A program made the translations under genes and the position numbers. Below the pieces are notes generated by a model, which worked only from the letters and a program-made list of their open reading frames with translations, was not told the DNA's origin and searched no databases. Shown here one piece after another: positions 6,595-63,029 of a stretch of DNA of 63,029 nucleotides. The stretch's first letter is position 1. The number at the start of each line of letters is the position of its first letter. This DNA comes from an uncultured Dehalococcoidia bacterium (GTDB lineage: Bacteria > Chloroflexota > Dehalococcoidia > Lucifugimonadales > UBA1127), in assembly GCA_913049785.1 (NCBI GenBank), contig CAJWXP010000010.1, positions 1-63,029 on the forward strand, in the 5' to 3' direction.

Positions 6595-8361
6595 ATGACA
6601 ACAGCAAACAGTAGGTTCAAGCCAAATATCGTCATCCCGGTGATTCAGGAAGAGATAGACCACTTTGAAGGCGAAGTTAAGCGCTTCCAATCCGGGGATT
6701 TGGACGCGGCAGAGTTCCGAGCTTTTAGGCTCCGACAGGGCGTCTACGGCCAACGACAGCCAGATAACCAGATGATGCGTGTGAAGATTCCCCTGGGTCG
6801 TATGACTCCGGATCAGCTTGATGTGCTGGGCGCCATCGCACGGGATTACACGCCGTTGAAGCGTGGCCACATCACAACACGTGAGAACGTGCAGTATCAC
6901 TTCATGAACCTGGACGATGCCGCTACTGTGATGCGGACGCTGGGGGAGACCGGCCTGGGCAGCAGAGAAGCCTGCTCCAACGCTGTTCGCAACGTGACCA
7001 GCTGCCCTCTTACCGGCGTCTGCCCTGAAGAGATCTTTGACCCGTCACCCTACGCAGTTGCGTACGTCCGCCAATTCGTGCGGCAAGAATACACTCACAA
7101 CATGCCCAGGAAGTGGAAGGCTGCCTTCAATGGCTGCACCCATGACTGGGTCATGACAGCCATCCATGACATCGGTTTCCACTCCGTCATCCGGGAAGAG
7201 AACGGCGTGGAGCGTAAAGGCTTCCGCATCGTCATCGGTGGCGGCACCAGCATCCAGCCGCTTATCGCTCAGGAGCTGTACGAATTCGTACCGGTAGAGG
7301 ACTTCCTGAAGGTGTCTGAAGCCTGCCTGCGTGTCTTCAACAACGCTGATGAACTCCGGAAGAACAAGATGAAGGCCAGAGTCAAGGTTCTGGTCAACCG
7401 CGTTGGCATAGATGAATTCCGCAACATGGTGGAAAAAGTCATGCGCGAAGAGTTAGCCGACGTGACCTACGACATGGACGCACTGACCGCTGGCGAGTAC
7501 GAAGATCCGACGCCTCCGCCGCCCAAGGCCTATCCAGCTATGCCCACCAACGATAAGGACTTTGACCGCTGGCGCAATAGCAACGTTACCCAGCAGAAGC
7601 AGGACGGCTACAGCGCTGTGTTCATCAAGATTCGGCTTGGCAACGTCACCGACGAGCAGTTCTTCCAGTTGGCGGACATCGCTCGTGAACTGGCTGGTAG
7701 CATCCGTTTGACCCTCCGGCAAGATATGGTCCTTCAGTGGGTTCCCAACGAAGGACTCTTCGCGCTGTACCAGAAGCTCTCAGCAGTCGACATGGTTGAA
7801 GCCGGAGCCAATGAACTGAGTGACGTGGTCTCCTGCCCCGGCACAGAGAGTTGCGCCCTGGGCATCACCTCCTCCCAAGGAATGGCGGGGAACCTCTGGG
7901 ACGCGCTACGCGACTACAAGGCAGATGACAAGCTTGCGAGAGCCATCCGCATCAACGTCTCCGGCTGCCCGGACGGCTGTGGTCACCACCACATGGGCAA
8001 CATCGGTTTCCAGGGCGCAGCCATGAAGAACGGAAGCGCTCAAATACCCGCCTACGAGGTCTACATGGGAGGCAGCCAGATAGCGCCAGTGCGCATCGGG
8101 AAGCGTCTGAAGGTGAAGATCCCCTCCAAGCGCATCGAGGAGGCAGTCCACGTCATCGTCGATGACTACGTGGCGAACCGCAAAGCCGATGAGATCTTCA
8201 ATGACTATGTGGACCGTATCGGCGTAGAGTCTTACGAGGGTCTGCTGGCACCGGTATCCACCGTCCCGCCTCTTGATAAGGACTCCATCCGGTTCTACAT
8301 TGACTGGAACCGGGACGTGCTCTACAAGGTGGAGCGCGGCGAAGGTGAGTGCGCAGCCTAA
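6595..8361 (+). CDS. Ferredoxin-type nitrite/sulfite reductase (siroheme, [4Fe-4S])
   Basis: A 588-residue enzyme of the assimilatory nitrite/sulfite reductase family, carrying out six-electron reduction of nitrite to ammonia or sulfite to sulfide. It has two tandem ferredoxin-like/reductase repeats: one near residues 50-130 (RQPDNQMMRVKIPLGRMTPD) with substrate-side TTRENVQYHF, and one near 340-400. The siroheme/[4Fe-4S] cysteines are CX5C at 414 and 420 and CX3C at 458 and 462 (SGCPDGCGHHHMGN). Start ATG 6595 follows an AGGAGG site. Nitrite versus sulfite cannot be settled by eye; no nitrate reductase or sulfate-activation gene is nearby, although modABC 2 kb upstream would suit molybdenum nitrate reduction elsewhere in the genome. 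Confidence 0.92.
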   Translation: MTTANSRFKPNIVIPVIQEEIDHFEGEVKRFQSGDLDAAEFRAFRLRQGVYGQRQPDNQMMRVKIPLGRMTPDQLDVLGAIARDYTPLKRGHITTRENVQYHFMNLDDAATVMRTLGETGLGSREACSNAVRNVTSCPLTGVCPEEIFDPSPYAVAYVRQFVRQEYTHNMPRKWKAAFNGCTHDWVMTAIHDIGFHSVIREENGVERKGFRIVIGGGTSIQPLIAQELYEFVPVEDFLKVSEACLRVFNNADELRKNKMKARVKVLVNRVGIDEFRNMVEKVMREELADVTYDMDALTAGEYEDPTPPPPKAYPAMPTNDKDFDRWRNSNVTQQKQDGYSAVFIKIRLGNVTDEQFFQLADIARELAGSIRLTLRQDMVLQWVPNEGLFALYQKLSAVDMVEAGANELSDVVSCPGTESCALGITSSQGMAGNLWDALRDYKADDKLARAIRINVSGCPDGCGHHHMGNIGFQGAAMKNGSAQIPAYEVYMGGSQIAPVRIGKRLKVKIPSKRIEEAVHVIVDDYVANRKADEIFNDYVDRIGVESYEGLLAPVSTVPPLDKDSIRFYIDWNRDVLYKVERGEGECAA

Positions 8362-13956: not shown

Positions 13957-14790
13957 CTAGGTTACGATGAGCGTATCGTCGAGGTTGGCCCACTCCGCAA
14001 AGGAACCATCGTAGTTCCGGACGCGGTCATAACCCATCAGCTTCAGGGTCAGCAGTCCGTGCGCCGCACGGATACCACCCTGTCAGTAAGTAATGACCTC
14101 TCTATCGGGTGTCACTCCCGCTGCGTCCAGCAAAGCCTTCAACTCCGCGGCGGACTTCCACGTCCGGTTCGGCTCGGCGTTCATGAAGTTGGTCCACTCC
14201 AGGTGTACAGCCCCGGGAATGTGGCCGCTTCGCTTGTTCCCTCGAGTAGTCTCGCCTGTCCATTCACCCTCGGATCGCATGTCCAGGTAGAGCACCTTGG
14301 AGTCCTCTACGTGAGACTTGCCATAGTCCAGGGGGCACAGGAGGTCTTCGTTAGTCGCAGGAACAAATGCTGGTGCGGAGACCTTTGGTATCTCTCGAGA
14401 GACAGGCCTGCCTTCATGGAACCACTTCTCCCAGCCGCCGTTCAGCACCTTGGCGTTGGTATGGCCATAGTAGTTCAGCGCCCACCACATCCGTGAAGCC
14501 GGTACGCCGCCAGCCGTGTCGTAGGTAACCACCGTGGTGTCCGGGCCAACGCCCAAGTCGCCCATCAGCTTTGCGAACTGGTCGGGCGGCATCACATGAA
14601 CCGTGTCATCCGCGTTCTTGATGACCGGATTTACTCGCAGACCGACGGCGTTTTTGATGTGCGCTTTCTGGTAGAGGTCAAACGTGGCGCAATCGATCAC
14701 ACGCACGTTGGGATCGTCCAAATGAGCTTCAAGCCAATCGGCCTCTGCAAGGAGTTCAGGCCGAGCGTATTCAGCGGATGCCTGGGTCAT
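13957..14790 (-). CDS. Selenocysteine-containing thiosulfate sulfurtransferase (rhodanese), predicted
   Basis: A two-domain rhodanese of 277 residues when the in-frame TGA at 14083-14085 (codon 236) is read through. The N-terminal, usually inactive, domain has WLEAHLDDPNVRVIDCATFD; the C-terminal domain has YLDMRSEGEW and GHIPGAVHLEW. The frame reads EVITY-TGA-QGGIRAAHGLL and continues with MGYDRVRNYDGSFAEWANLDD to TAG 13957-13959. The catalytic loop of this family is TYCQ(G/S)GxRAAH, so the TGA sits exactly on the active-site cysteine that carries the persulfide. A nested hairpin begins immediately after the TGA. The start is ATG 14790 behind GGAGG. Sec insertion is inferred; a nonsense mutation is the alternative. 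Confidence 0.8.
14044..14082 (-). promoter_or_regulatory. Bacterial SECIS-like hairpin of the rhodanese gene
   Basis: Directly 3' of the UGA the RNA forms a lower stem CAGGGU (14082-14077) with ACCCUG (14049-14044) and an upper stem UCCGUGC (14072-14066) with GCACGGA (14062-14056), leaving an apical loop GGC (14065-14063). The loop starts 17 nt after the UGA and begins with G. This agrees with the bacterial SECIS pattern as I remember it: a hairpin just after the UGA, a loop about 16-37 nt away and a G in the first two loop positions. Confidence 0.75.
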
Positions 14791-14901
14791 AGTCGCCTCC
14801 TGGGTGGAATGGGCACAAGTATACTCCACGTCTCAACCATTAATGCGCTATCATGGGATGCAGAAAATACCGAGACTCACCAAATTATTCAGGAGGGCAG
14901 A

Positions 14902-42826: not shown

Positions 42827-42990
42827 GAGCCATCCTTCATTAAAGCGGGATTTGCCCCGGCTAGGCCCCTACATGGACACAGCGAATGCGCACCGCTATT
42901 GAGGGCTGGCTAGGAACTGCTCTATTATAGGCACAGATTCAGTGACATGGGGGCATTGGTGGCCCTACGTGCCGATAGACAGGAGCGAAT

Positions 42991-43509
42991 ATGGCAGACA
43001 CAAATCAGGGGCATCAGACGCCCACACGGTACTTCACCGCCGAGGGAGTCGGCGAGACTCTGGACAAACACATGAAGAAAGTCACGGTGAAGGGCAGGGA
43101 GTTCCTGTGCGATGAGAGCGTCGCCTTCGGTGGCGAAGACTCCGCGCCAGGGTCTATGGACTACTTTATTGCGGCGATACTCTTTTGAAAGATGTCCCAA
43201 ATCGGCAGGTTTGCCGATATGTTCAAGGTAGAGCTCACCAAGGTCCGTTCCCACATCATCGCCCACGAGATGGCCGAGGGATCAGCTATCGAAGAATCGA
43301 TATACGGCAAATGCACCGGCATTGAGACGACCTATGAGATTGAGTCGCCTTCCGACCCTGCCCTTGTGGCAAAGGTGATTCGGAACGCACGCAAAGCATG
43401 CATGATCGGCAACACCGTCAGCGTGGGCGTACCCATCGAGGATTCATTCACCTTGAACGGTGCATCCTTTGACACAGAATTGTATCCAAAGACTGAGGCC
43501 CCAGCGTAG
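42991..43509 (+). CDS. Selenocysteine-containing OsmC-like protein, predicted
   Basis: One continuous 172-residue OsmC-like protein if the TGA at 43186-43188 (codon 66) is read through; otherwise it would be two meaningless fragments in the same frame. The N-terminal part reads FLCDESVAFGGEDSAPGSMD, matching the GGxDxAPxP region of OsmC, and the TGA follows YFIAAILF exactly where OsmC proteins carry the peroxidatic cysteine (LLAALGSC-type). The second cysteine sits at residue 137 (RKACMIGNTVS). A perfect 6-bp hairpin follows the TGA. ATG 42991 has an AGGAG site. OsmC-like proteins detoxify organic hydroperoxides or act on thiol compounds. Sec is inferred. Confidence 0.82.
43189..43218 (+). 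promoter_or_regulatory. Bacterial SECIS-like hairpin of the OsmC-like gene
   Basis: Starting directly after the UGA, 12 unpaired bases lead to the stem AUCGGC (43201-43206) / GCCGAU (43213-43218) with loop AGGUUU (43207-43212). The loop lies 18 nt after the UGA and has G as its second base. This again agrees with the remembered bacterial SECIS pattern, and the distance nearly equals that in the rhodanese gene. Confidence 0.72.
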
Positions 43510-59538: not shown

Positions 59539-60357
59539 TCAGGCTACATCGTGGTCTGGGTGGTTTAACCTTCCATGCTGCCAATACCCCTGGGCATGAA
59601 TCCTCGTTTCATCAAGAAACCGATCTTCGATGAAAAATCTTTTAGCCGAAAGTACCACAGATGATTCGCAACCAATCCAAACATGTCCATTACCTTCGGG
59701 TAGGCGAATATTACGAAGGGCAGACAAGAGCATTTGGCCGGGCACCGCTTGGTTGAGACCACGATGGAGCCAAAACACTTGCACTAGGGGCAGGCTCGGT
59801 AATTCTTGTTCTTCTGCATTATCAAGCACTTCTAAATAAACCTGAGCGGGTATTGAAGCAGGAAGGGCCTCAATGATTGTTGCTATCGCTGGGAGCGCGG
59901 TCTCATCCCCTGCCAGTATGTACCAGTCAGCATCATAATCCAGGAAGTACGTTCCTTGAGGTCGACCACTAATTACTGCTTGATCCCCAGGTTTAACATT
60001 CGCGGCCCATTGGGAGGCTAGACCTTCTCCATGAAGGACGAAGTCAATCTCTAACTCTGCTGTTTCTGGGTTCCAAGTTCGTGTTGTGAAGGTACGGCTC
60101 GGCGGACGTTCGAGATCCTCGGGAAACGAATATCCTTCAGGGGTGAGAACCGGGAGGGTTAACTTTCCCGATGCTTGATCAGGAAAGAACACCCGGAGGT
60201 GTTCGGCGGGTCCCTTTGTTTCAAACCCTTTGAGGCCCTCGCCTCCGAATTTTACCCTAACAGTACGTGGGGAGAGTTGCCTAACACCTACAATGTTGAC
60301 GAGACGCGGTGGTGAGCGTCGCCTAGGTGTTCTCGGTGTTTCGTTCGAAGAATTCAT
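59539..60357 (-). CDS. Siderophore-interacting protein, FAD-dependent ferric reductase
   Basis: A 272-residue SIP-family flavoprotein. The FAD-binding R-x-(F/Y)-T-x-R motif is in SRTFTTRTWNPETAELEIDF, and DYDADWYILAGDETALPAIA is the NAD(P)H-side strand. The C-terminal GYWQHGRLNHPDHD is the family signature. Such enzymes reduce ferric siderophores in the cytoplasm. ATG 60357 follows a run of AT. No siderophore receptor or ABC gene adjoins it, so a general flavin reductase role is also possible. Confidence 0.9.
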   Translation of the reverse strand: MNSSNETPRTPRRRSPPRLVNIVGVRQLSPRTVRVKFGGEGLKGFETKGPAEHLRVFFPDQASGKLTLPVLTPEGYSFPEDLERPPSRTFTTRTWNPETAELEIDFVLHGEGLASQWAANVKPGDQAVISGRPQGTYFLDYDADWYILAGDETALPAIATIIEALPASIPAQVYLEVLDNAEEQELPSLPLVQVFWLHRGLNQAVPGQMLLSALRNIRLPEGNGHVWIGCESSVVLSAKRFFIEDRFLDETRIHAQGYWQHGRLNHPDHDVA

Positions 60358-60694: not shown

Positions 60695-61240
60695 TTATTC
60701 CGATTCTTGAATCTCTATTGTGAACAATCTGTCACCCGGTTGTTCCGGTGGTGGCCAATCCCAATCTGGATCTCTTGGCGTTAAGTTCAAGACTACATCT
60801 AAACCTTCGATTACTCTGCCGAAAGCAGCATTCCGGTCGTCGAGATGTGGTGTTGGGATGTGTTGGATAATAAACTGGCTACCATTGGCATTTGGGCCTC
60901 GGTTAGCCATTGTGATAACCCCAGGGGAATCGTGCCGAATATTGACGTTAAATTCATCTGCGAATCTATACCCGGGGTCGCCATAACCGTCCCCTCTTGG
61001 GTCTCCACCCTGGCTAAAAGCACCGGCAACCACCTTATGAAAGGTGGTGTTATCGTAATATCCATCTCGAGCCAAAAAAACGAAATTATTGACTACACTA
61101 GGAACCTCTTTAGTGGCGAGCTCAACGACGAAATCACCCTTCTCCGTTTTGAATTTTGCTAGGTATTGATGATCCAGATTGATAATCATCGGTGGTTGGG
61201 TAGAGTATTTTTTGGGCTGAGGTTCTTGCTCGCCGACCAT
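60695..61240 (-). CDS. Cyclophilin-type peptidyl-prolyl isomerase
   Basis: A 181-residue cyclophilin with a short polar N-terminal extension. Core elements are FKTEKGDFVVELATKEVPSV, NNFVFLARDGYYDNTTFHKV, AFSQGGDPRGDGYGDPGYRF, MANRGPNANGSQFIIQHIPT and FGRVIEGLDVVLNLTPRDPD; the FHKV...GDP and NGSQF segments line the active site. The catalytic arginine of classical cyclophilin (FHRVI) is lysine here, so activity may be reduced. ATG 61240 is preferred to 61276 because of AGGAACC upstream. No signal peptide is visible. Confidence 0.9.
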   Translation of the reverse strand: MVGEQEPQPKKYSTQPPMIINLDHQYLAKFKTEKGDFVVELATKEVPSVVNNFVFLARDGYYDNTTFHKVVAGAFSQGGDPRGDGYGDPGYRFADEFNVNIRHDSPGVITMANRGPNANGSQFIIQHIPTPHLDDRNAAFGRVIEGLDVVLNLTPRDPDWDWPPPEQPGDRLFTIEIQESE

Positions 61241-61294
61241 GAGAGGTTCCTTTCTAACCGATTGTTGAACGCCCATTCTCCAGTTGCGTTGAAA

Positions 61295-63029
61295 TTAGAC
61301 GTTGAGAATGGAAGCTATTGAGGTAATAAAGTCTTCATCACTCAGCAAAATTGACCAACTGATTTCATCATGAGGCTTTTCCCCAAATCCAGCCTTCATG
61401 TAGTACATATCGTCGGGGGTACTGCGAAACACAATGTGGCCCACGCGAAAAGCATGTTTCTCTTCAGTATCCAAATAGGTTTGAGCGGCTTCATCATTCT
61501 TGAACTTATGTACGAGGAAGGAATCTCCGTTCACTCTGGCAAACACAGCATTCAATCCACCAACACGTAGGTGGCTCCGTGGTGTTTCAACTAACCATCG
61601 ACCAGTGCGGATTCCTTCAATAACAAAATCAACTCCTATCTGCACATCATAGGAACGCTCTTCCAGTCCTTGGAGCAGGTCGATAAGCCCGGTCCCTTCC
61701 TTTTTCAGCTCAGGAAAATTAGTCGAAAATAATGAGATAAAGCTACGACCAACAAAGTCATTTGGATCCAATAACAATGACCACGGTATCCGTTCATCTG
61801 GGAGCAGTCGGCTGTGAATAGAGTCGATGTAGTGTAAGTGATCATCCGGATCTGATTCCAAAACTACTTTACCGCCGCGAATGGAGTGGGGCTTACCGAA
61901 GGCGTAATCTTCGGCTGTGGACCGGCTATGGAATTCGACGATCCTAAATCGATCATGATTAATGCGAATGAAGAGGCCAGCCATAGCCTCATTGGGAAGC
62001 TCAAGATTCAATAGCTCGGCATCAGCAACGACGTTGTAATTGCTCTCTCTCAGAACGTTCAAAACATTCTTAAATGCACCCTCATCGACTTTAGGTTGAG
62101 CGGTGCTCTGGTAAATATCATTGTCACGGTGGGCCCAAGCCCATCCATGGAATCGGAGGAAGGTATAACTGACATGTTCAAGTTGCTGGCCAGCCAACGG
62201 TCCGGTCAAACATTTACCTTCAACATTCCAGGTGGATTTTGTTTCTGAATCGCGAAAAGTATTCCCATCATTCTGAAATGTCAGTTCTTTTCCGTCAGAC
62301 ATGGCGTAGTAGGCGCCTGTCCAGAAACTTAACGCATTTGGTCCTGTCCAGACGACGATACGTTGTCCACCGAGAATGTCATGGACAACCCCTCCTTCTT
62401 TCCTAATCTCCTCCACCGGATAAAGTCTGGTTGCTGCACCATGGGTTGCCGATAGGATCATGGCATTTTCAGGCAAACGTATATCAGGTGCGTCCCCAAG
62501 GGTACGAACAAAAGCTGGGCTTATCCCGGGCCGGCCATACCATTCTTCGTCGCCATGTCCGTGGCGTTGATCGATATGGTTGGGATCGGTAGGCTGAGTC
62601 ATAACCAAAGTATCGGGATGAAGGTCCAACCATTCTCCATAGGTGGTGTGGTAGGTGGGAATTCGCTCCAAGATCTCACCTTTCATCGGTCCATTAACAG
62701 CGATCCCTTCAGCAATGAGCCAGGAAGATCTCGTTTGAGCATCTGATGCAATGAGAGAACAATTGTGAATACCACCACCGAACATGTAGAGCGGTTTACC
62801 TTGCACTGACGCCATCCAGGCGTCGCCATTCTGGCAGCGCTCTCAGCTGAAAACGACGAATGGCTCGTCTTCTATATGATCATGAATCGTATGGTAATAA
62901 TCGATAATCCATAGAGCATAAACTTTATTTATACCCTTATAAGCGATACCTATTACGTAATCATCATCACGCATGAAATTCGCTTCTGCTGCAGGAACAT
63001 ATTCCGGTTTTGCAATGAGGGGGATTCGG
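61295..63029 (-). CDS. Selenocysteine-containing DUF3179 protein, predicted (5' end beyond window)
   Basis: A DUF3179 protein whose frame runs from the right edge through an in-frame TGA (62843-62845) and on to the stop at 61295; an ORF from ATG 62815 alone would miss the N-terminal 70 or so residues. Upstream of the TGA the frame reads IPLIAKPEYVPAAEANFM, DDDYVIGIAYKGINKVYALW and EDEPFVVFS; the TGA is followed by ERCQNGDAWMASVQGKPLYM. DUF3179 has VVVTYCPLC(N/G)-x-x-x-AF here, so the TGA replaces the first cysteine of CxxC, giving U-x-x-C. Later parts are YGEWLDLHPDTLVM and a duplicated C-terminal domain (SDPDDHLHYI and STPDDMYYM units). It is AT-richer than most of the window. Confidence 0.8.
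62803..62842 (-). promoter_or_regulatory. Bacterial SECIS-like hairpin of the DUF3179 gene
   Basis: Downstream of the UGA: lower stem GCGCU (62840-62836) with AGUGC (62807-62803), upper stem GACGCC (62824-62819) with GGCGUC (62813-62808), loop UGGAU (62818-62814). The loop starts 24 nt after the UGA and has G as its second base. A side hairpin GCC-AGAAU-GGC (62835-62825) could compete. The pattern agrees with remembered bacterial SECIS limits. Confidence 0.68.

Follow-up and report, generated by a model that had tools for sequence, protein, structure and literature searches.

A DUF3179 selenoprotein with a SUERC motif from an uncultured Dehalococcoidia bacterium, a probable cytosolic thiol/selenol oxidoreductase

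At one end of the window, i.e. the whole stretch of 63,029 nucleotides analyzed here, a reading frame for a DUF3179 protein is interrupted by a TGA codon at the site of the first cysteine of a CxxC-type motif. The question raised by this locus is whether the codon is read as selenocysteine (Sec) and, if so, what the resulting protein might do. The window is an entire contig (C10) of an assembly of 2.15 Mb in 77 contigs.

An in-frame TGA in a DUF3179 gene

The coding frame lies on the minus strand (61295..63028), comprises 577 residues plus the stop codon and is 5'-incomplete at the contig end; its missing N-terminus was not found on the other contigs of the genome. From 63028 to 61295 the frame has a single interruption, the TGA at 62845-62843, read here as Sec (U62) in the first position of a UxxC motif, the second cysteine of which, C65 (62834..62836, minus strand), is invariant in our alignment A2. 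The motif is situated in the first DUF3179 repeat and reads UERC, or S-U-E-R-C with the preceding residue; its columns are invariant in A2, and many relatives have Y-C-P-L-C at the same site. When the TGA is read through, the protein matches Pfam PF11376 (DUF3179) with 124 bits (cut-off 27, profile positions 4-276 of 292), while the open reading frame from ATG 62815 alone gives 74.6 bits, and the 61 codons 5' of the TGA contribute about 50 bits to the match. An earlier note on this DNA had proposed that the frame runs upstream through the TGA, that the extended protein thereby gains a DUF3179 N-terminus and that the motif is S-U-E-R-C; all three proposals are borne out, and the N-terminal residues it quoted are present.

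The same genome carries a paralogue on contig C3 (L005, protein P0002) which is 76% identical over the shared residues and has TGA at the same site. Differences between the two copies fall predominantly on third codon positions, both upstream of the TGA (39 of 54, p=6e-9) and downstream of it (p=2e-25), which indicates that both sides are under purifying selection for protein. Together with the bits gained upstream, this third-position bias places the extension of the frame beyond chance. It could still be argued that the UGA is a true stop, the gene being in decay or translated from ATG 62815 only, as the downstream frame matches DUF3179 by itself and possesses an ATG. The purifying selection seen to either side of the codon speaks against this, as do several lines of evidence given below. 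Conventional gene calling would begin at ATG 62815 and drop the active site, and ordinary gene calling strips the active site from such proteins in general.

Other DUF3179 sequences of the genome seem less intact. A third gene (L003, contig C13) has an in-frame TGA in its motif (WUPIC) and its later part seems frame-shifted. Two more genes, on contigs C9 (L001/L004) and C16 (L002), also look frame-shifted, with stretches of the DUF3179 domain in different frames, owing to decay or assembly errors.

Sec machinery and the hairpin 3' of the UGA

Absence of the Sec pathway had been named as a finding that would speak against Sec. The genome, however, has a complete set, with SelA (550 bits), SelB (341 bits), SelD (379 bits) and tRNA-Sec (72.3 bits) all over their curated cut-offs, and the SelD gene itself contains one in-frame TGA. 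This machinery is a further argument against a true stop. It is also difficult to reconcile with the UGA encoding another residue genome-wide, be it Cys or, as in translation table 4, Trp. Such a code would leave the frame open, but TGA terminates ordinary genes of the window, among them the gene at 60357..59539.

A SECIS-like structure (62803..62840, minus strand) follows directly 3' of the UGA and carries G in its apical loop. It consists of an inner hairpin, GACGCC-UGGAU-GGCGUC (62824-62808), and an outer helix pairing 62840-62836 with 62807-62803. The inner hairpin, which the earlier note had described with a G at loop position 2, is present; it begins 18 nt past the TGA, its loop starts at +25, and G stands second and third in the loop. 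Counted from the TGA, a stretch of 52 nt has a folding energy of -20.6 kcal/mol, with a z of -2.84 relative to dinucleotide-shuffled sequences, and one C-G pair of the window hairpin is U-A in the paralogue, a compensatory double change in which both substitutions are synonymous. No relevant Rfam model matched the window hairpin.

A comparison of the element in homologues, which the earlier note had called for, shows that hairpins follow TGA sites and not Cys sites. Measured against synonymous recodings of the encoded peptide, the 42 nt 3' of the site gave a mean z of -1.52 for 26 TGA sites versus 0.02 for 23 Cys sites (Mann-Whitney p=3.4e-6). These hairpins also covary. The group with uPLC or uTLC motifs (12 sequences) has a stem of seven pairs from 13 nt past the UGA, with 95% of cells paired and 12 double changes, and this covariation was matched by 0 of 500 shuffles and by no slid register. 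In the uIKC group the stem is strong and nearly invariant, and for that reason adds little covariation. Linkage of a hairpin to the UGA across the family is again not what would be expected of a true stop.

Sec/Cys exchange and the SUERC/SCERC branch

To count codons at the motif site we used 57 distinct DUF3179 domains, whose alignment favored no particular residue there. TGA was found in 31 of them, TGC in 20, TGT in five and AGC in one, and elsewhere only six in-frame TGAs occurred in about 20,400 aligned codons. Lack of TGA/Cys variation at the first position had been given beforehand as a reason to abandon the Sec reading; instead, the variation is widespread (TGA 31, Cys 25 of 57). In the domain tree Sec and Cys have replaced each other at least seven times, and so many switches among the sampled relatives point to a catalytic role of the first motif residue. 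Sec at the first UxxC position of the window protein is therefore, as far as sequence comparison can tell, well supported. That 31 of the 57 domains have UGA precisely where the motif cysteine stands, and that L061 (see below) has Cys there, makes a true stop highly improbable. Genome-wide recoding can practically be dismissed, as TGA in DUF3179 domains hardly occurs outside the motif position and is aligned there with Cys rather than Trp.

DUF3179 is present in 35 of 60 related genomes, and 29 of these 35 carry at least one copy with in-frame TGA. Because tRNA-Sec occurs in nearly all relatives (50 of 60), finding it together with TGA-type DUF3179 is uninformative. Three genomes (G007, G047 and G050) have TGA-type DUF3179 without a tRNA-Sec match at E 1e-8, possibly because of incomplete assemblies with missing contigs, or of divergent tRNA-Sec. 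The single AGC belongs to L079 (genome G046), in which serine replaces both motif cysteines (SPIS), which suggests that the redox site has been lost in this member.

According to the earlier note, Sec had not been described in DUF3179. This is contradicted by published tables of prokaryotic selenoproteins, which list a DUF3179 domain-containing protein with UxxC/T (PMC9312934, PMC13188914), the entry in the former citing a 2007 study of an Olavius algarvensis symbiont (Zhang and Gladyshev, in PMC9312934), and by the NCBI product name "DUF3179 domain-containing (seleno)protein", which occurs in plasmid records. What is unusual here is not Sec in DUF3179 but the branch to which the window protein belongs. 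It shares with the listed selenoprotein the Pfam domain (PF11376) and Sec as the first residue of UxxC, but has SUERC instead of the (Y/W)U(P/T)LC common in this survey, a two-module extension, a His-rich insert and, in complete members, no export signal. The listed selenoprotein enters this comparison through its entry in the reviews.

The window protein (P0001) begins with DUF3179 repeat 1 (residues 19-143; 62600..62974, minus strand), which bears the UxxC motif. Repeat 2 (residues 184-308; 62105..62479, minus strand) is without CxxC; it was delimited in A2 and by its self-match to repeat 1 (E 3e-6). Between the repeats sits the His-rich insert DPNHIDQRHGHGDEEWYGRPG (62525..62587, minus strand; A2), a possible metal site. 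Its pattern, DPxHxDxRHGHGxEE, is common to all three branch members (P0001, P0002 and L061), whereas P0003 and P0004 lack it, a restriction to the branch that holds among the sequences aligned in A2. The C-terminal extension (residues 316-577, about 260 residues; 61298..62083, minus strand) consists of two related modules (E 3e-11 between module 1 and module 2), is shared with L061 and matched no Pfam family. NCBIfam gave no match for the window protein, the PDB sequence search returned nothing useful, and the structure predicted from a two-sequence input was unusable for assigning a fold, such as that of thioredoxin (pLDDT 40.5, pTM 0.29).

L061, from the Actinobacteria MAG AC_52 (VAYG01000050.1), is the sole full-length relative that turned up when the genome collection was scanned. 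Like the window protein it has the C-terminal extension and the His-rich insert, and its N-terminus is not hydrophobic; it differs in having SCERC, with Cys (TGC) for Sec, in lacking the hairpin (z +2.1) and in being 36-37% identical. An acyl-carrier-protein-like reading frame, recognized by eye, and not a cyclophilin gene, lies downstream of it (6700-6979). In the domain tree, a quick tree with SH-aLRT support only, the C10 and C3 copies and L061 are joined with full support, beside the uIKC group. The members of this sister group (support 95), which carry uIKCSSG and come from the same class (L025, L026, L027, L035, L054 and L056-L059), have UxxC and are about 30-35% identical to the window protein; P0003 and P0004 of this group have hydrophobic, lipobox-like N-termini and neither the C-terminal extension nor the His-rich insert.

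The branch as found consists of the two copies in the window genome and one actinobacterial MAG. A search of 393 genomes of the class at E 1e-35 brought up no other protein spanning the C-terminal extension; the scan for full-length relatives used short conserved peptides, which could miss more distant members. Viral contigs scanned by protein contained neither the branch nor canonical DUF3179, a DNA-pattern scan of viral contigs found a single Cys-type DUF3179, and phage records gave no match.

Neither complete branch member, the paralogue or L061, has a hydrophobic N-terminal signal or a lipobox. Their best 15-residue hydrophobicity means are 0.54 and 0.19, respectively, versus 2.2-2.7 in four other DUF3179 proteins. 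The window copy, truncated at its N-terminus, is by extension from these two probably cytosolic as well. One could go further and regard the SUERC/SCERC branch as a distinct cytosolic, Sec- and metal-dependent type of enzyme, derived from exported DUF3179 by loss of the signal, gain of the His-rich site and fusion to the two-module C-terminal domain, although we hold this to be doubtful.

Proposed function and neighboring genes

We consider it fairly probable that the window gene encodes a DUF3179 selenoprotein acting as a cytosolic thiol/selenol oxidoreductase via a selenenylsulfide. SelB, bound to the hairpin past the UGA at 62845-62843, would insert Sec at the first UxxC position, a step for which the comparison of homologues argues. 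The U62-C65 pair would then cycle between selenol/thiol and selenenylsulfide, while repeat 2 and the C-terminal modules may have a structural role or bind substrate, and a metal might sit at the His-rich insert. The oxidoreductase role is suggested by the UxxC motif together with the repeated Sec/Cys exchange, and a redox role of the window protein is, judged from its sequence and those of its relatives, a reasonable inference. A divergent branch is in this way added to a selenoprotein family of no known function.

It is also conceivable, if unlikely, that the protein is a selenoprotein in which UxxC serves to bind or pass on a metal or metalloid, aided by the HGHGxEE insert of this branch, and no thiol redox chemistry is involved. 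The insert pattern is common to the three branch members and absent from the aligned uIKC relatives, and among the proteins listed with UxxC or UxxU are some that handle metals, including a ZntA-type ATPase and a putative mercuric reductase (PMC9312934). P0003 and P0004, however, retain UxxC without the insert, and the neighboring gene encodes a cyclophilin, with no metal-resistance gene noted adjoining. The neighbor, a cyclophilin-type peptidyl-prolyl isomerase (60695..61276, minus strand; Pfam PF00160), lies 18 nt downstream of the DUF3179 gene, and a cyclophilin gene is also found 3' of the paralogue on C3 (128 and 129 bits for the two cyclophilins). A cyclophilin at both loci would be in keeping with a function in folding or repairing proteins. 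As one block has likely been copied to give the two loci, this is weak evidence.

Two other genes of the window contain an in-frame TGA. A rhodanese/sulfurtransferase of SseA type (13957-14829, minus strand) has TGA 14085-14083 at the catalytic Cys (VITYUQGGIRAAH) and matches Pfam Rhodanese with 136.6 bits when the TGA is read; a rhodanese-type selenoprotein appears in a published list (PMC9312934). The same list includes Sec in OsmC, and an OsmC-like protein of the window (42979-43509, plus strand; TGA 43186-43188, AAILFUKMSQIGRF) matches Pfam OsmC with 52 bits when its TGA is read.
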